In this document: positions 6,840 to 43,111 of the stretch, piece by piece
How positions within the stretch are numbered: position 1 is the first letter of the stretch
How the letters are laid out: the number at the start of each line of letters is the position of its first letter
Assembly: GCA_021793235.1 (NCBI GenBank)
Contig: JAJYTD010000028.1
Location: 1 to 53,968 of the forward strand
DNA: 53,968 bases
Reading direction: 5' to 3'
Source: Actinomycetes bacterium
Lineage (GTDB): Bacteria; Actinomycetota; Actinomycetes; Streptosporangiales; Streptosporangiaceae
Notes under the pieces: generated by a model
Database searches by the model: none
The model's input: the letters and a program-made list of their open reading frames with translations, nothing else
Told to the model about the DNA's origin: nothing
Position numbers and translations under genes: made by a program

Positions 6840-6865
6840 GGCATCTGCTCCTTTCCACACCGCCT

Positions 6866-7020
6866 ACCGGGTTAGCTGACGGATTCGGGCGTGGAAGTCG
6901 CCCTACGACCCTCCTGCTGCATGGCGAGGAGGCATCGATTCACCCCTGCGAGACGGCACGGGCCGATCGGCCCCGACGTGACTCGCGTTGGTTCCCCGGC
7001 TCCGCGCTTCGGCGCGGACT
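6866..7020 (-). ncRNA. c-di-AMP riboswitch (ydaO/yuaA leader) upstream of the M15 gene
   Basis: Read on the minus strand, the segment holds the ordered ydaO/yuaA blocks GAGCCGGGGAACC, GCAGGGGTGAATC, a GTAGGGCGA block, and CCCGAATCCGTCAGCTAAC ending in CCGGTAGGCGG. The ribosome site and start follow immediately. Boundaries are approximate. In actinobacteria this RNA class is known to control cell-wall hydrolases. Confidence 0.88.
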
Positions 7021-7407
7021 CGGCGTCGCCGTCTTCATCTGACGAGCCGGCTGCAGCAGGTTCGGATCGTGCCGCGAGCCGCTGCTCGCTCAGGATGAAG
7101 CGGACACTGATAGATGAAAACGGCACCTGGCAGGTGCCGAATTCCAGCAGACCGTACTCAAAGGGCCAACCGAAGGCAAACAGCATCATCAGGCTGTGTG
7201 ACCAGGCAAGACGGCTGCCCGCCCGAGGCGACGGCGTTCCGGGTGTTGGCTCAGCCAGGTGGTCAAGCTGCGATGGGAAGCGTTCGCTTAACGGCATGAA
7301 GGGCATGTGCGGAGGGCACCAGGCCGCCCTCTCGCCGCCTCTGACGCGGCCTCGTTGAGGGTGACGGGCCCTGGATCGTGATCGGTCGGGGTGGGCTGTA
7401 GCCTCTG
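7021..7407. other. Intergenic region, no gene supported
   Basis: 387 bp between the riboswitch and the ccdA operator. It must contain the minus-strand promoter of the riboswitch transcript. Open frames on both strands lack ribosome sites or recognisable families. Confidence 0.4.
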
Positions 7408-8233: not shown

Positions 8234-8267
8234 TGATCACGCGCACTGTGCAGCCGTGGCAGCAGAG

Positions 8268-8331
8268 ACTACGAGGACGTAGTAGAAGCCTGCCAAGCTG
8301 CGGCGATATCGTCGGATACGACAGGTGCGTA
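8268..8331. promoter_or_regulatory. Two degenerate BlaI-type palindromes before blaI-1
   Basis: ACTACGAGGACGTAGT (8268-8283, perfect 6-bp arms) and TACG-N7-CGTA (8317-8331) precede the repressor gene. Their spacing differs from the 19-bp consensus used elsewhere. They may be autoregulatory sites of this particular BlaI; this is inference. Confidence 0.5.
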
Positions 8332-8352
8332 GTAGGTCACAAGGGGAGTCCG

Positions 8353-8703
8353 ATGGCGCTCGGCAGTCTGGAGTCCGAGATCATGGACGTTCTCTGGGCC
8401 GCGCGAGAACCGCTGGCCGTCAGGGAGACGCTGGAGAGGCTCAACGTCGGCCGTACTCCGCCGCTGGCCTATACGACCGTGCTCACCGTCATGAGCCGGC
8501 TGGCTGAGAAAGGCGCCCTGACGCGGACCACCCGGGGACGCGGCCACGCCTACGCACCAGCCGCCGACGACGAAGCGGCGCTGGCCGTTCAGGCCGTTTT
8601 GCGCACCTACGGCGATGCGGCGGTCAGCCGCTTCCTCGATCAGGCGGCCACTGACCCGGCCCTTCGAGAGCGGCTGCAAGCGCTACTGGAGAAGGACTCG
8701 TGA
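8353..8703 (+). CDS. BlaI/MecI/CopY-family repressor (pair 1)
   Basis: A 116-residue winged-helix repressor. LGSLESEIMDVLWAAREP begins the DNA-binding domain and LAYTTVLTVMSRLAEKGAL is the recognition helix. The C-terminal dimerisation helices match family length. ATG 8353 follows AAGGGGAG. It overlaps the M56 peptidase gene by GTGA, the classic blaI-blaR1/mecI-mecR1 arrangement, in which the protease inactivates the repressor. Putative own operators lie 25-85 bp upstream. Which of the nearby boxes it binds is not known. Confidence 0.93.
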   Translation: MALGSLESEIMDVLWAAREPLAVRETLERLNVGRTPPLAYTTVLTVMSRLAEKGALTRTTRGRGHAYAPAADDEAALAVQAVLRTYGDAAVSRFLDQAATDPALRERLQALLEKDS

Positions 8704-9587
8704 CGCCCCGGCATATGGACACCGGCAATCGTGCGTTCTGGGTGCTTGTCGGGGCATCGGTGGCCCTGCGCATCGTGCTCGCCTACGGAGTTTGCTGCCT
8801 GGCGATGGTCGTCTGGAGGGTAGTGCGGGACGGCGGTGCCGCCGCGTTGTGGACGTCCCGTCCAGACCTGATCCCAGGCGTGCTGATTCTTGCCCTGACC
8901 AGCGCGGGCCTACTGAAAGGGACCTGGGCACTGGGACGGTCGTTCTACGACCTCCGTTCGTTCGCACGCACGGTCCGGCGGTACCGCAGGCCTGTTCCAC
9001 CGGAACTACGGGCGCTCACCGATCGGCTAGGAATCGGAGCACGGATCCGCGTGATCGCCACGTCCTGCCCCTTCGCCCTCACATATGGGCCTCGCCGGCC
9101 ACATGTCCTGGTGAGCACCGGGCTGCTGGACGTTCTCAGCAACGAGGAGCTTGCCGCCGTCCTCGTGCATGAGCGCGCTCACCTGCGGAGCCGCGACCCG
9201 CTGAAGAACCTCTGCACCCGGGTGATCCTGGCTCGGCATTTCTACCTGCCGGGGGTGGCCTGGTTGCGGCACCGCTTCACCATGGGACGCGAATTGGCCG
9301 CGGACCGGCGCGCCGCTGCTCTGCACGGCACCACGGCCCTTGCGGGCTCACTGCTCAAAGTGTCCGAGGGTCCTGCGTGGACCAAGGCGGTCCCGGCGGC
9401 GGCGATGGCCAGTGATGAACTGCTCGCGGCGCGTATCACCCAGCTTGAGACCGGTACGGAGCCGCCGCTGCGACGTCCCGGCCGCCTGGCCCGCGCGGGT
9501 GCCGCCGTATCGGTGACGGCCTTTGTGGCCGCATGCGTGTGGTCGGCGCAGGTCATCGGCCAGTCGACGCCGGGCTGCATGTTCTAG
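8700..9587 (+). CDS. M56 (BlaR1/MecR1-type) membrane metalloprotease (pair 1)
   Basis: 295 residues with three or four helices around a cytoplasmic zinc-protease domain. LVHERAHLRSRDP is the HExxH site, and GRELAADRRA supplies the third ligand downstream. It lacks the extracellular penicillin-binding domain of true BlaR1, as is usual for actinobacterial M56 proteins, so the signal it senses is unknown. GTG 8700 overlaps the blaI stop. By analogy it relieves repression by the paired BlaI. Confidence 0.9.
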   Translation: MTPRHMDTGNRAFWVLVGASVALRIVLAYGVCCLAMVVWRVVRDGGAAALWTSRPDLIPGVLILALTSAGLLKGTWALGRSFYDLRSFARTVRRYRRPVPPELRALTDRLGIGARIRVIATSCPFALTYGPRRPHVLVSTGLLDVLSNEELAAVLVHERAHLRSRDPLKNLCTRVILARHFYLPGVAWLRHRFTMGRELAADRRAAALHGTTALAGSLLKVSEGPAWTKAVPAAAMASDELLAARITQLETGTEPPLRRPGRLARAGAAVSVTAFVAACVWSAQVIGQSTPGCMF

Positions 9588-22470: not shown

Positions 22471-22514
22471 GTATCTACTACAGCTCCATAGTACTACGGG
22501 TGCATAGTAGATAC
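22471..22514. promoter_or_regulatory. Compound BlaI-type operator upstream of a methyltransferase
   Basis: Two TACTA/TAGTA pairs with 8-bp spacers overlap at 22476-22509. The whole block is bounded by perfect 10-bp inverted repeats, GTATCTACTA (22471-22480) and TAGTAGATAC (22505-22514). This would allow two dimers side by side. Confidence 0.75.
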
Positions 22515-24461: not shown

Positions 24462-24604
24462 CGATCATCGCTGATGCACGCCGTTGAGGGGCCGTCGTCG
24501 TCGGCTGGAAGCCGTTCCCAGCCGGGCCGCTGAAGGCCCGGGACGTCCCCGTTCCCACCCACGGCCGACTCTCCGGCAGAATGTGGGCAGGACGGAGGTG
24601 CCGT

Positions 24605-24985
24605 GTGGCCGGATTGAGCGGATCGCTCGAACGTTCCATCATGGACGTGCTCTGGGAGGCCCCCAGCCCGCTACGCGTTCGTGAGCTTCTGGCAAAGCTG
24701 AACGAGAACGCCGACAAGGCGCTGGCCTACAACACCGTCCAGACCGTGGCCGAACGGCTGGCGCAGAAGGGGCTGCTGCAGCGTACGCAGGACGGGCTGG
24801 CCTTCCGCTACGCCCCCACCCGTGCGCGGGAAGAGTATGCGGTCGAGTTGATGCTCGACGCTCTCACCGAGTCTCCCGACCACGGGAGCATCCTCGCGAG
24901 GTTCGCCGAGAGCGTCCCTCCGGAAGACGCCCGCCACCTGCTGGACGCGCTGCGCCGGCGGACGTCCGACGGCCAAGAGGCGTGA
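24605..24985 (+). CDS. BlaI/MecI-family repressor (pair 2)
   Basis: 126 residues. LSGSLERSIMDVLWEAPSPL and LAYNTVQTVAERLAQKGLL are the winged-helix elements. GTG 24605 follows GGAGG. The M56 partner starts 4 bp after its stop. Unlike the other pairs, no TACTA/TAGTA box is visible in its own leader (24462-24604), so it may not repress itself, or may do so through another site. Recognition-helix residues differ from pair 1 (NTVQTVAERL versus TTVLTVMSRL), a possible basis for different operator preference. Confidence 0.93.
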   Translation: MAGLSGSLERSIMDVLWEAPSPLRVRELLAKLNENADKALAYNTVQTVAERLAQKGLLQRTQDGLAFRYAPTRAREEYAVELMLDALTESPDHGSILARFAESVPPEDARHLLDALRRRTSDGQEA

Positions 24986-26000: not shown

Positions 26001-26061
26001 CCATTGCGAGGCGTCCCCGCCGGGGACAGCGATGGCCACGCCGAATCCAGCGGACCACGCC

Positions 26062-26163
26062 GTCCGAGGGAGCCGGGGAACCGTTCTCCACTGGGGTGAA
26101 TCCGTTCTCCGCGAGCGGTAGGGCAACTCCGGCCCGAACCCGGCAGCTCACCCGGTAGGCGGC
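26062..26163 (+). ncRNA. c-di-AMP riboswitch upstream of the NlpC/P60 gene
   Basis: Ordered blocks GGGAGCCGGGGAACC, ACTGGGGTGAATCC, GCGGTAGGGCAACTCC, GGCCCGAACCCGGCAGCTCA and CCGGTAGGCGG match the actinobacterial ydaO/yuaA aptamer. The gene starts 17 nt after it. Ends are approximate. Confidence 0.92.
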
Positions 26164-26180
26164 ACAGGAGAGGACACCGC

Positions 26181-27749: not shown

Positions 27750-28700
27750 TCACACGGGGAAGTGGCAATGCCGTTCGAGCAGCGCCGTGATGGCCGGGTT
27801 GGCGGCGAGCGCCAGTGGAAGGGTCACCAGCAGGGCGATGCTCACGCCGCCGGTGAGACGTCCAGTACGCGACAAGGGGTCATGAGGCGCGAGCAGGCGG
27901 CGGACCCGCAGCAAGGCCGTCCCACCACCGGCGCCCATGGCCATGGCCGGCGTCCGGCCGCCCGCGACGGTCACCAGCGCCGCCGCCAGCGTGACGCGGT
28001 CGTGGTTGCGCGCGGCCACGTCATCGGCCAGCAATTCCAGCAATCGAGGGACCTCGGACCTGGCCGCGCGGAGGAGCGGGACCGCGGGGAACGCGCGGCC
28101 GAACGCCACGGCAAGATTGATGGCCAGGTCGTGGCGGCCCTCTAGATGTGCATGTTCATGGGCGAGTACCGCAGAAACCTGGTCGTCGGGGAGTCTTTCG
28201 AGTGCGCCCGTGCTGAGCACGACGCAGCGCCGGCGTCCTGGCAGGCAGTAGGCCAGCGGCTCGTCGTACTCGACGACCAGTGCATCCAGATCCCCGCGAC
28301 GGCGGGCCACCATGGTCAGCGTCCGCACGTGCCGGCGCCGCTGAACCGCGGTCGCGATGAAGGTCGTCAGGACGTGCCCGGCCGTCCAGAGCAGGACGCC
28401 GCCGGCCACGAAGAGCCCGGCGTAGCCCGCGATCGGCTGCGGCGGGACCTCATAGTGCAAGCGCAGCATCAGGCGGCACGCCGCGAGCAGGTCCGCAAGG
28501 CCGTGCGGCGCCTGGACGATCGGCACCACCAGCATCAGTCCCGCCAGGACCACGGCTGCGATGACGGAGGCCCCGGCCGTCTGCCAGACGAGCACGCCGA
28601 GCCGCGGCGCCCGGTCGGCCCAGCCGCGGGCGCGCAGGAGCCGAGGCCCCAGGATCCCCAGCAGCACCGCGTAGCCCAGCAGGGTGGCGACCGCGGTCAC
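27750..28700 (-). CDS. M56 (BlaR1/MecR1-type) membrane metalloprotease (pair 3)
   Basis: 316 residues, four to five helices. VLAHEHAHLEGRHDL is the HExxH site and LLELLADDVAARNHD holds the third ligand. It begins inside the end of its BlaI gene (4-bp overlap). As with the other two, no beta-lactam sensor domain is present. Confidence 0.9.
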   Translation of the reverse strand: MTAVATLLGYAVLLGILGPRLLRARGWADRAPRLGVLVWQTAGASVIAAVVLAGLMLVVPIVQAPHGLADLLAACRLMLRLHYEVPPQPIAGYAGLFVAGGVLLWTAGHVLTTFIATAVQRRRHVRTLTMVARRRGDLDALVVEYDEPLAYCLPGRRRCVVLSTGALERLPDDQVSAVLAHEHAHLEGRHDLAINLAVAFGRAFPAVPLLRAARSEVPRLLELLADDVAARNHDRVTLAAALVTVAGGRTPAMAMGAGGGTALLRVRRLLAPHDPLSRTGRLTGGVSIALLVTLPLALAANPAITALLERHCHFPV

Positions 28701-29071
28701 TTGTCGTCCCGTGGTCGCACGACGTTCAGGGCCGCTTGGAATGCCTCGCTCTCCTCCGGCGACAGATCCGACAGGAAATGCACGAGGGCGGCAGCCTGGT
28801 TGTTACTGGTCGCCAAAGCCTCGCGCATCAGCTTGGCCGTGTAGCCCTCCCGCGAGGCGACCGCCTCGTACTCATATGCACGCCCGACCCGCTTCCTGCG
28901 CAGCCATCCCTTCTTGTGCAGGTTGTCCATCACGGTCATCACCGTGGTGTAGGCGATCGACCGCTCCTGCTGGAGATCTTCCAGGACCTCACGGACGTTC
29001 GCCGGACGGCCGTAGGACCACATCCTGTCCATGATCGCGGCCTCCAGGTCACCGAAGCGCTGCCCGGCCAT
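28697..29071 (-). CDS. BlaI/MecI-family repressor (pair 3)
   Basis: 124 residues. FGDLEAAIMDRMWSYGRPAN then SIAYTTVMTVMDNLHKKGWL form the winged helix, closest of the three to canonical BlaI. The tail (SPEESEAFQAALNVVRPRDDK) is the dimerisation helix. ATG 29071 with GGGAGG on the minus strand. A good TACTA-N7-TAGTA box about 45 bp upstream implies autoregulation and makes this the best candidate master regulator of the TACTA-type sites. Confidence 0.93.
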   Translation of the reverse strand: MAGQRFGDLEAAIMDRMWSYGRPANVREVLEDLQQERSIAYTTVMTVMDNLHKKGWLRRKRVGRAYEYEAVASREGYTAKLMREALATSNNQAAALVHFLSDLSPEESEAFQAALNVVRPRDDK

Positions 29072-29113
29072 GATCCACCGCCTCCCGACATCCCACCTCT
29101 TGACTATCACCGC

Positions 29114-29259: not shown

Positions 29260-30045
29260 TCAGCGAAGCTTGGACGGAAGCATTCCGGCGACGTCGTCTC
29301 GAAGGTCCGGCAGCGTGGGGGCGAACTTGTCGCCGCAGCAGTCGGTGTCGTTGAACTTCCTGTGCGGCATGATGGCCTCGTGCGGGTTGAGGTCGTATTG
29401 CTCGCACAGCCAGACGCAGACTTCCACGAGGGATTCGCGTAGACGACGCGGCGGCAGGACGGTGTTGTAGGTTCCTTCGCACTCGATGCCCACCGCGACG
29501 TCGTTGGCCCCTCTCACGTGCGTGCCTACGACCATCTCACCGCGCTCTACGGCGGCGATGCTCCCGGTACGGCCCTCCAGGATGTGGCCGCCGCGGCTGA
29601 TGGTGAGATGCTGCCCGGTGTCTCCCCACCCCTGTTCCTTGTGCACGTTCTGGATCGCGCGCGCGAGCCGCTGCGCCCGCGACAGCGAGTAGTCGTCGAC
29701 GTTGTCGGTAGCGGTGTGGTGGACGATGATGTACTTGGGGGGACGTCGGCGAACGGACGCGTCCCTGTCCGGGGCCTCGGCTCCCCATTGTTCGGTGCGA
29801 TAGATCAGCGGAACCGTGGCCGAAGCCCTCCGTGCGTCCCGCGAGGTGCGGGGTCGCCTGTCCCCGGATCCTTCCTCCTCGGCGCGCGCACCAGGCGGGC
29901 GTACGGTGCGTTGCGGGGGCTGGCCGGTCATCCCTTGGACGCCGAACGCCGCGCCGGCGGCGAGGATTCCGCCCACCAGGAAGGCCCGGCGCGGCACAGC
30001 GCCGTCCATGGATTGGTGCGCGCGGTGCTTTCCGTCATAGTTCAT
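29260..30045 (-). CDS. Tat-exported N-acetylmuramoyl-L-alanine amidase (Amidase_2/PGRP type)
   Basis: 261 residues. A twin-arginine signal (VPRRAFLVGGILAAGAAFG) comes first, then a linker. The amidase domain is at about 90-255. KYIIVHHTATDN holds the first zinc His, GQHLTISRGGHILEGR follows, and GTHVRGANDVAVGIECEGTY and EAIMPHRKFNDTDCCGDKF hold the remaining ligand His and Cys. It cleaves the bond between muramic acid and the stem peptide. ATG 30045 follows CGGAGG. Its leader shows no BlaI-type box, and the riboswitch unit upstream ends in its own terminator. Confidence 0.93.
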   Translation of the reverse strand: MNYDGKHRAHQSMDGAVPRRAFLVGGILAAGAAFGVQGMTGQPPQRTVRPPGARAEEEGSGDRRPRTSRDARRASATVPLIYRTEQWGAEAPDRDASVRRRPPKYIIVHHTATDNVDDYSLSRAQRLARAIQNVHKEQGWGDTGQHLTISRGGHILEGRTGSIAAVERGEMVVGTHVRGANDVAVGIECEGTYNTVLPPRRLRESLVEVCVWLCEQYDLNPHEAIMPHRKFNDTDCCGDKFAPTLPDLRDDVAGMLPSKLR

Positions 30046-30234
30046 CGGGGTGTCCTCCGAGGGGATCGCCCGACGGCTCCGCCAGAGAATAGGAATGGCA
30101 GGCCGAAGGGCAGGCAGAACTCACTGCCTGTGGCCACACAAGAAAGATGCGCGCGAAATAACACATGCGAACCCGCCATGGTGAACATGGCCATGGCGGT
30201 AAATCGCGCAGCGAATCAGTCGTGCGAGTGCACG

Positions 30235-30265
30235 CCATAAAGAAGACGCCGCAAATCAGGCGGCG
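30235..30265 (-). terminator. Intrinsic terminator closing the riboswitch-smORF transcript
   Basis: On the minus strand CGCCGC-CTGATTT-GCGGCG is followed by TCTTCTTTATG, a stem plus U-rich tract that is rare in this high-GC DNA. It separates the riboswitch unit from the amidase gene. Confidence 0.78.
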
Positions 30266-30336
30266 AGGTGGTCCTTAGCTTAGCGCCCGGCCAGATCAAT
30301 GGATGCCGCGGGTCGCTCTGCTGCCTTCCGGGGGCA

Positions 30337-30435
30337 CTAGCCGCCGTGTGAGGTCAGGCACAACGGCGGTCGGACCGCCACTCGTGGACGAGCTGCGTGG
30401 TGGCGGACGGTGGGGGAAGCGTTCTGCTCCTTCAT
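30337..30435 (-). CDS. 32-residue small ORF directly behind a c-di-AMP riboswitch
   Basis: ATG 30433-30435 on the minus strand is preceded by AAGGAGAGGAGAAAGC, a strong ribosome site at the exact position where riboswitch-controlled genes start. It encodes 32 residues, basic and Pro/His-rich (ASPTVRHHAARPRVAVRPPL), ending in TSHGG. It is too short for a cell-wall enzyme. It could be a leader peptide, a small protein, or the remnant of a deleted hydrolase. Confidence 0.45.
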   Translation of the reverse strand: MKEQNASPTVRHHAARPRVAVRPPLCLTSHGG

Positions 30436-30450
30436 GCTTTCTCCTCTCCT

Positions 30451-30560
30451 TGGCTGCCTACCGGGTTAGCTGACGGGTTCGGACCAGGAGCAGCCCTACC
30501 GCGATCTTGATCGCGGATTCACCCCGAAGACGATGGGTCCCCGGCTTCCAGACGTCGGGC
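30451..30560 (-). ncRNA. Stand-alone c-di-AMP riboswitch
   Basis: Minus-strand blocks GAAGCCGGGGACCC, TTCGGGGTGAATCCGC, GCGGTAGGGCTGCTCC, TGGTCCGAACCCGTCAGC and TAACCCGGTAGGC match the ydaO/yuaA aptamer. It is followed by a 32-codon ORF and a terminator rather than a hydrolase gene. Confidence 0.9.
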
Positions 30561-30609
30561 GTCATGGAATTAGGCGTTCGGTCGCCATCTGTCGATAGAG
30601 GCCGACCGA

Positions 30610-30628
30610 GTACTAAGCACGTTAGGAC
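30610..30628. promoter_or_regulatory. BlaI-type operator (one mismatch) upstream of the stand-alone riboswitch
   Basis: GTACTAAGCACGTTAGGAC: TACTA-N7-TAGGA, with a single mismatch in the right arm, about 50 bp upstream of the riboswitch. Confidence 0.6.
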
Positions 30629-30678
30629 ATGAGACACCGAACTGCCAAGTCGGCAAAGGTAAAATCCACCGGTCCGCC

Positions 30679-31368
30679 TCAGTTCGGATCAGCGGTGCCC
30701 CACACCACCCCGATGCCCGGAAGCGGCTGACGGTGCCCCATGGTCTTGAAACCGGCGTCCTCGAAGGCCTCCGCCCAGAAACTCCCGGTCGCCGTTGTCT
30801 CCCGCAAGGCGTGCAGCGTCGAAGGAATGAACCGGCCGGCACTGCGATCGAGGCGCCCCCTGCCGCTGGAGTCCGGTCCGCCGAGACGGAATCCGCGCCG
30901 ACCGGCGGAGCCCTTCCGCTCGGGCATCAGGTCGGCGATCACCAGTCTTCCCCCGGGCCGCAGCCAGCGCAGTGCCCTGGCGACCAAGGCCCGCTTCTCG
31001 GCGTTCTCGCAGTGGTGGAGGGCCAGACCGGAGACGACCAGGTCGCAGCTCTGGCGCGGCATGACCAGCTCGGTGATCGGGACGGTCTCCATCCTGATTT
31101 CCGAGGCCCCATGCTCGCGGGCACGGGCCGCGAGCCGCGCCGCCAAGGCCTTGGACGGCTCTACGGCGACCATTTCGGCGACTTCTCTGGAGAGAGGGAC
31201 GGTGAGCATGCCGACCCCCGCGCCGAGGTCTATGCAGCGGTCCTGTGACCGTGGCGCGGCCCGAAGCCAGACCTCGGCGCTGAGGGCCGCTGAGGCCGAC
31301 GCGCTAAGCAGGTGGTGATGCCACTGCCCCGCCAGGGCGTCCGTCATGGGTTCAGCTCTCATCGTCAT
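30679..31368 (-). CDS. Class I SAM methyltransferase (paralog A)
   Basis: 229 residues. CIDLGAGVGMLTVPLSREVA is motif I, VAVEPSKALAARLAAR follows, and DLVVSGLALHHCENAEKRAL and RWLRPGGRLVIADLMPE are the later motifs. It shares QWHHHLLSASAS, the ALHH motif and a GIGVVWG tail with its neighbour at 31417-32163, so the two are tandem paralogs. ATG 31368 with GGAGG. An imperfect BlaI-type box lies 20 bp upstream. Substrate unknown. Confidence 0.88.
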   Translation of the reverse strand: MTMRAEPMTDALAGQWHHHLLSASASAALSAEVWLRAAPRSQDRCIDLGAGVGMLTVPLSREVAEMVAVEPSKALAARLAARAREHGASEIRMETVPITELVMPRQSCDLVVSGLALHHCENAEKRALVARALRWLRPGGRLVIADLMPERKGSAGRRGFRLGGPDSSGRGRLDRSAGRFIPSTLHALRETTATGSFWAEAFEDAGFKTMGHRQPLPGIGVVWGTADPN

Positions 31369-42934: not shown

Positions 42935-42989
42935 TCGGTTCGTGATCCACTCCCCGTCCGGGGGGCGCGGGCCGACCGCCGAATCTCAA

Positions 42990-43095
42990 GGCGCAGCAGC
43001 GCCACGGGAGCCGGGGACCCACTGTTCCTGGGGTGAATCCGCCACGCGCGGTAGGGCTGCTCCTGGCCCGAACCCGTCAGCTAACCCGGCAGGCG
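42990..43095 (+). ncRNA. c-di-AMP riboswitch upstream of the CHAP gene
   Basis: Blocks GGGAGCCGGGGACCC, TCCTGGGGTGAATCCGCC, GCGGTAGGGCTGCTCC, GGCCCGAACCCGTCAGC and TAACCCGGCAGGCGG match the ydaO/yuaA aptamer. The ribosome site GAGGAG and ATG 43112 follow directly. Confidence 0.92.
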
Positions 43096-43111
43096 GAGTC
43101 GAGGAGAACCA

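Follow-up and report, generated by a model that had tools for sequence, protein, structure and literature searches.

The mode of action of cyclic di-AMP (c-di-AMP) riboswitches in actinobacteria is unsettled, translation being indicated for Corynebacterium glutamicum and transcription termination for Streptomyces coelicolor (PMC9960051, PMC10117811). The riboswitch of C. glutamicum nlpC appears to be translational, and blocking of the ribosome-site GGAG by CTCC was called thinkable (PMC9960051). In Mycobacterium tuberculosis, a ydaO riboswitch lies ahead of rpfA (PMC6009663). Riboswitches of other classes act in this species through upstream open reading frames (uORFs): the pe20 Mbox has a translational platform that controls uORF Rv1805A, with termination by Rho (PMC12810186), and B12 riboswitches act with uORFs, of which one is required for and one opposes the downstream gene (PMC11260477). 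An earlier study, told in PMC12810186, tied most M. tuberculosis riboswitches to Rho-dependent termination and to small translated peptides. Considered here is a c-di-AMP riboswitch on the minus strand of a contig from an actinomycete of family Streptosporangiaceae (JAJYTD010000028.1, assembly GCA_021793235.1); the whole stretch of 53,968 nucleotides is called the window. Its aptamer is followed by a short uORF and, further on, by the gene of an N-acetylmuramoyl-L-alanine amidase.

The locus is best read as an amidase leader in which c-di-AMP acts directly on a regulatory uORF, through which the amidase would receive the signal; confidence in this reading is about even. The features concerned are the following.

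30439 to 30586, minus strand: c-di-AMP (ydaO/yuaA) aptamer including its 3' tail (RF00379).
30486 to 30490, minus strand: loop CUCCU, proposed pseudoknot 5' strand and anti-Shine-Dalgarno, complementary to AGGAG at 30450-30446; loop and tail co-vary between loop classes.
30441 to 30450, minus strand: AGGAGAGGAG, kept in relatives; its first AGGAG is read as the proposed pseudoknot 3' strand and its second as the Shine-Dalgarno of the small ORF.
30337 to 30435, minus strand: 32-codon uORF, from ATG (30435) to a TAG ending at 30337; start kept, peptide not.
30054 to 30058, minus strand: Shine-Dalgarno GGAGG of the amidase gene, by sequence reading.
29260 to 30045, minus strand: N-acetylmuramoyl-L-alanine amidase gene, owner of the leader (Amidase_2, 63.5 bits; orthologs).

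The RF00379 covariance model was matched over its full length (positions 1-134 of 134) with 88.2 bits (E 2.5e-19, gathering score 38). An earlier note, made from the sequence alone, had placed this aptamer at 30560-30451; the aptamer is real and its limits are now extended to 30586-30439. It would be expected to bind c-di-AMP. The same note had described a unit with no enzyme gene, the amidase lying beyond a terminator. Orthologs of the amidase were sought in 41 relatives, 200 genomes of the family, 65 genomes of genus g51 (g-numbers denote genera) and a named genome collection, the last being queried with six peptide patterns. Matches of E 1e-60 or better from the family and g51 searches were retained together with six from the peptide patterns, weaker ones were taken as paralogs and left out, and identical leaders were merged. 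Ten distinct orthologs were obtained: W, which is the window's own locus, and, among other aptamer or amidase loci (L-numbers), L110 (= L216), L111 (= L217), L113 (= L218), L115 (= L219), L084, L087 (its aptamer also being entry L055), L006 (= L114), L085 and L112 (= L086).

An aptamer preceded the amidase in nine of these ten, none being found upstream of L112 by core motif. The amidase, whose ATG (30045) stands in the window 291 bases past the uORF stop and beyond a hairpin, followed the aptamer in all nine aptamer-bearing orthologs, so that the description as a unit without enzyme gene has to be abandoned. A search of related genomes for the same aptamer and small ORF, proposed earlier as a check, recovered the complete layout (Shine-Dalgarno at the aptamer 3' end, short ORF, main gene downstream) in eight of the nine. 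Distances from uORF stop to amidase start ranged from 205 to 298 bases, L084 being counted at its second start candidate (145 at the first). Leader and amidase stayed together in eight of nine relatives. The methyltransferase upstream in the window was present in none of the nine and BlaI clearly in only one (L114, 72 % identity, upstream of the aptamer and not downstream of the amidase); L111 gave a weak BlaI match on the other strand only, and flanks were short for several relatives (about 1.5 kb in L084, L085 and L087). As far as these sequences tell, aptamer, uORF and amidase mostly move as one, and the unit is most likely a leader rather than a lone module.

Reading of the sequence bore out the ribosome site AGGAGAGGAG and the 32-codon ORF directly under the aptamer. 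A start codon was located 27-29 bases behind the aptamer core, with the same Shine-Dalgarno, in eight of the nine aptamer-bearing orthologs. It was ATG in W, L113, L115 and L084 (32, 25, 26 and 32 codons, respectively), GTG in L110, L087 and L006 (25, 40 and 24 codons) and TTG in L111 (32 codons). A start codon occupying any of three adjacent offsets had a chance of 0.068 per locus (from 2076 leader positions), giving P 4e-9 for eight kept starts out of nine, a value that ignores relatedness and is hence too small. The eight loci were spread over four genera (g1, g20, g47 and g51). The ninth, L085 (minus strand), displayed a perfect hairpin CCGGGCC-TTC-GGCCCGG after the tail, 3' of its aptamer, in the stead of the uORF.

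Conservation faded rapidly beyond the start. Identity of W to L110 and L111 was 95 % and 85 % in the Shine-Dalgarno tail and 71 % to both in the first eight uORF codons; it fell to 52 % and 36 % in the remaining uORF, and was 51 % and 44 % in the leader past the stop. The check on conservation of the 32-residue peptide, also proposed earlier, found the peptides of the eight orthologs unalike: no residue run was common to them, and they shared neither a sensing-codon run nor an arrest motif such as a leader-peptide attenuator would display. No common structure of the start-codon region was seen by eye in single-sequence minimum-free-energy folds of 18 loci. Judged from these comparisons, the uORF start is retained and the uORF peptide is not, and the small ORF is probably translated. 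The earlier description is borne out in part, and its interpretation is supported in part; it was right in placing a small ORF directly under the aptamer.

Features of the aptamer itself were compared in a census of 157 RF00379 loci, of which 149 were mostly the best-scoring of the order and eight were added as the window's own unit or as orthologs of its amidase; L068 (ending in the aptamer), L077 (= L006), L054 (= L084) and L001 (= W1) were dropped. In the window, loop CUCCU faces AGGAG of the tail, as expected for the loop-tail pseudoknot of RF00379, and the aptamer 3' end coincides with AGGAGAGGAG. The ydaO sequence printed in PMC5393176, where a pseudoknot is mentioned, contains CUCCUUCG and CGAAGGAG; their assignment as the pseudoknot strands is a reading made here of that source. 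All 65 loops with CTCC were accompanied by a GGAG tail, and 83 of the 89 loops with CTTCC by GGAAG, versus one of the 65 CTCC loops; three loops were of other kinds. Loop-tail complementarity of 138 unique order-level pairs, to which the 157 rows were reduced, was 5.51 versus 4.91 (standard deviation (sd) 0.08) with shuffled tails. Among 26 loci from outside the family, from which L267 had been dropped as a member of the window's family, it was 5.88 versus 5.02 (sd 0.15).

The same layout was encountered ahead of other genes. An independent set came from genus g40: of 15 genomes, 11 possessed an aptamer and a 29-codon GTG uORF ahead of a CHAP hydrolase (52 bits for CHAP in L041), the uORF being kept in all 11 orthologs. 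Compared with the reference, nine of the ten other uORFs were free of indels, and gaps of 1 to 51 columns occurred just past the stop in nine of ten; the uORF of L230 contained two single-base indels of opposite sign which left its length unchanged. With L230 excluded, the remaining 10 sequences showed even substitution of the three codon positions (5, 7 and 6 of 30). Such a pattern would be expected of a uORF retained for the act of translation rather than for its peptide, and equally of a stretch retained as RNA. The CHAP gene itself seems to start at ATT in these orthologs (L041:557-1264, minus strand), six bases behind GAGGAG (8 of 11) or TAGGAG (3 of 11); upstream indels change the frame, which argues against an upstream ATG.

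The census was classed by rule into 99 loci with a gene directly behind the aptamer, six in which a short ORF accompanied a direct gene, 27 with a short ORF only and 25 with neither; L044 was classed as the last kind despite an ATG 14 bases after GGAG. Without the eight added loci, the uORF kind amounted to 20 of 149. The 27 loci spanned eight genera (g1, g4, g6, g20, g40, g47, g51 and g54), and their three main downstream groups were Amidase_2, CHAP and an 'ASYFWDD' family without Pfam match, whose N-termini look secreted by eye. Among the 26 best-scoring loci from outside the family none was of the uORF-only kind, a gene-length frame being found within 60 bases in all 26 (that of L274 leaves the stretch after 85 codons). 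It is tentatively proposed, with confidence a little short of even, that rewiring of the c-di-AMP riboswitch occurred on several occasions in the window's family and that a uORF of free sequence relays its signal to at least three kinds of genes (Amidase_2, CHAP and the family without Pfam match).

Other observations were made along with the census. The uORFs of g4 (12-26 codons) partly share MxxRVVPP, and some constraint on peptide or RNA may exist there. At L209:3-836 (minus strand), the aptamer and an 11-codon ORF are followed by an RNase_T exonuclease rather than a hydrolase, which makes it a candidate case of a lost enzyme. In 23 of the 25 loci classed as neither, an in-frame CTG located 34-38 bases behind the aptamer core opens 190-231 codons (e.g. 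L208:679-1290, minus strand), and a conserved CUG start appears likely in those 23; the one such locus tested for a domain displayed NLPC_P60.

The mechanism proposed for the window would run as follows. Aptamer, uORF, hairpin and amidase would be carried on a single transcript starting near 30612. Bound c-di-AMP would stabilise the pseudoknot between CUCCU and AGGAG, which overlaps the ribosome site of the uORF, and keep ribosomes off the latter. Translation of the uORF, and not its peptide, would transmit the signal over the 291 bases that separate the uORF from the amidase. Such a distance between stop and start makes reinitiation unlikely and polarity the natural link: most likely, transcription of an untranslated leader would end prematurely, through Rho or at the hairpin, and the amidase would be off at high c-di-AMP.

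Several points weigh against this proposal. The link between uORF and amidase is one that we infer, and an excess of C over G, taken as a rough indicator of Rho sites, was not clearly different between uORF leaders and the 99 directly controlled genes. The Shine-Dalgarno is also a pseudoknot strand, and its conservation is therefore no proof of translation. Within the two loop classes, loop-tail match was about two sd over shuffles (5.90 versus 5.77, sd 0.07; 5.05 versus 4.86, sd 0.09), so that the co-variation signal is mainly a difference between classes. L085 possesses aptamer and amidase without a start codon at the uORF place. In g40, an overlapping second GTG ORF of 32 codons was likewise present in all 11 leaders; since it is equally kept, the absence of indels does not tell which frame is read. 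The window hairpin formed in all four folded stretches, with no sign of switching. Finally, regulation of S. coelicolor rpfA is reported to be by transcription termination (PMC10117811) and, as told in PMC9960051, Rho-independent.

Two hairpins lie between uORF and amidase.

30239 to 30265, minus strand: terminator-like hairpin CGCCGC-CTGATTT-GCGGCG (stem 30265-30247) followed by TCTTCTTTAT, with a T-rich tail to 30239; shared with L110.
30111 to 30130, minus strand: hairpin CAGGCA...TGCCTG ahead of the amidase, from reading of the alignment without statistics; L110 and L111 have it too, their extension pairs being changed.

In plain transcriptional attenuation, RNA polymerase would halt within the leader once c-di-AMP is bound, and the small ORF would merely result from the purine-rich sequence of the pseudoknot strand. 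This is judged unlikely, although premature termination on c-di-AMP binding was reported for S. coelicolor rpfA (PMC10117811) and the leader does contain a hairpin followed by a T-rich tail. The GC stem with U-tract announced by the earlier note does exist, and a similar hairpin was found at the aligned place in L110, the nearest relative, place and tail being kept; the hairpin stretch of W was 77 % identical to L110, versus 51-54 % on the flanks, and 37 % identical to L111. As a statistical site it was no more than chance: one terminator-like site was found in 1.1 kb versus a shuffle mean of 0.6 (sd 0.8), and the window hairpin is by itself not beyond chance. Terminators were found in three of the eight amidase leaders (W, L110 and L055) versus 1.1 expected from shuffles, which is weak as a group. 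No such hairpin was detected in the other five leaders (L111, L113, L115, L084 and L006), nor any terminator in 10 leaders of other uORF groups, and no competing fold to switch the hairpin was found in the window. Retention of the start codon in eight of nine orthologs, with exchange among ATG, GTG and TTG, also speaks against a mere by-product. Being constitutive in the folds (stem probability 0.96-0.98 in all four stretches) and absent from five of eight leaders, the hairpin may give basal attenuation in the window's lineage rather than act as a switch.

The opposite sign was also considered, with uORF translation lowering the amidase and c-di-AMP, by silencing the uORF, raising it. Both signs exist in M. 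tuberculosis, where the metE uORF suppresses and the ppe2 uORF is required (PMC11260477). W and L110, moreover, contain at or just past the uORF stop a segment whose sequence is complementary to the left hairpin arm. The probability of the L110 hairpin varied with the stretch folded (0.91, 0.00, 0.22 and 0.95). A switchable terminator was rejected for W, the hairpin forming at 0.96-0.98 with or without the complementary segment, and an antiterminator is not supported there. This alternative is regarded as improbable.

That the unit is autonomous, its product being either a small protein or a riboswitch RNA terminated after about 375 bases and active at other sites, is very improbable, even with the hairpin and T-rich tail standing ahead of the amidase. 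The amidase comes next in nine of nine loci, and no promoter-like conserved block was seen by eye in the alignment between hairpin and amidase. A functional small protein, as envisaged by the earlier note, was ruled against by peptide divergence, by identity of the ORF body at the background level of the surrounding leader and by the even codon-position substitutions of the CHAP group. That the ORF is the remnant of a recently deleted hydrolase once directly under the riboswitch, the other suggestion of that note, is scarcely credible: a gene lies directly behind the aptamer in 99 of 157 classed loci and direct control may be ancestral, but the short ORF is found in eight orthologs of four genera and is the N-terminus of a longer gene in none of the eight.

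Upstream of the aptamer, a further feature was recognised.

30603 to 30665, minus strand: conserved promoter-like block of invariant columns in an alignment of five leaders, comprising ATTTTACCTT (30665-30656), a -35-like TTGGCA (30648-30643), a -10-like TAACGT (30624-30619) and the start region CTTAGTACTCGG (30617-30606).

A generic sigma-70 scan of 29900-31000 yielded no promoter, and the promoter is therefore supported by conservation alone. Position 30610, behind this block, is a likely transcription start. A BlaI-like box had been claimed there and is not supported as BlaI operator: a search for BlaI-type palindromes with at most three mismatches gave eight matches in the window versus 1.6 expected, at 8267-8334, 22476-22509, 38090 and 40038, and none near 30610. 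Paired palindromes with one mismatch, at 8267-8334 and 22476-22509, lie upstream of an M56 gene and of a gene with VanW domain. In genome G019 (L006), a BlaI-type palindrome was read upstream of the aptamer, and BlaI control of the amidase is thus possible in a relative; in the same locus (L114), a BlaI gene 72 % identical to that of the window lies upstream of the amidase leader.

Four c-di-AMP riboswitches were found in the 4.8-Mb genome, all within 36 kb (6846-7035, 26029-26177, 30439-30586 and 42967-43110); they are followed by the wall hydrolases VanY, NlpC/P60, Amidase_2 and CHAP. The unit under study is odd among them, the other three aptamers opening a gene directly. In single-contig relatives (e.g. 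G080, G097 and G135), the listed riboswitch places were mostly far apart, with one close pair in G080. Genes of Penicillinase_R (BlaI) or M56/M48 (BlaR1-like) type occurred at 8700-9584, 24581-24982 and 27750-29110, near three of the four riboswitch hydrolases.

Among the papers listed by literature searches on riboswitches or c-di-AMP together with uORFs, small ORFs or leader peptides, examined in part, none was on a uORF under a c-di-AMP riboswitch; an example may already be in print, in the earlier study told in PMC12810186. If the proposed relay is true, it may be the first of that sort for a second-messenger riboswitch (cyclic di-GMP was not searched for). Its uORF start codons can be altered without touching the aptamer, and the loci are hence suited to test.

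The closest described systems each share part of this layout. C. glutamicum nlpC combines the same aptamer class with a cell-wall hydrolase target; the ribosome site concerned is there that of the enzyme gene, and in the window that of a 32-codon ORF, 291 bases before the enzyme (PMC9960051). S. coelicolor rpfA is likewise an actinobacterial c-di-AMP switch ahead of a muralytic enzyme; it is reported to act by premature, Rho-independent termination of transcription, and the passages devoted to it in PMC10117811 and PMC9960051 mention no uORF. With a uORF placed between switch and enzyme, one element would unite both modes: translation would respond to the ligand, and leader transcription would change once translation is lost. 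For metE and ppe2, the B12 riboswitches are translational and come with short ORFs by which the downstream gene is modulated, as proposed for the window (PMC11260477); the ppe2 uORF differs in overlapping its gene by AUGA, where the window has a gap of 291 bases, and its action is ascribed mainly to termination-reinitiation. The pe20 Mbox with Rv1805A resembles the unit, as proposed for the window, in its termination in the leader (PMC12810186). It responds to Mg2+, its uORF peptide is highly conserved and its Rho dependence is shown (PMC12810186), in contrast to the c-di-AMP class and unconserved peptide of the window unit; the latter point excludes the unit from the Rv1805A kind, which it may nevertheless resemble in its action. 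If so, c-di-AMP would join B12 and Mg2+ among the actinobacterial riboswitch classes with a uORF as expression platform.
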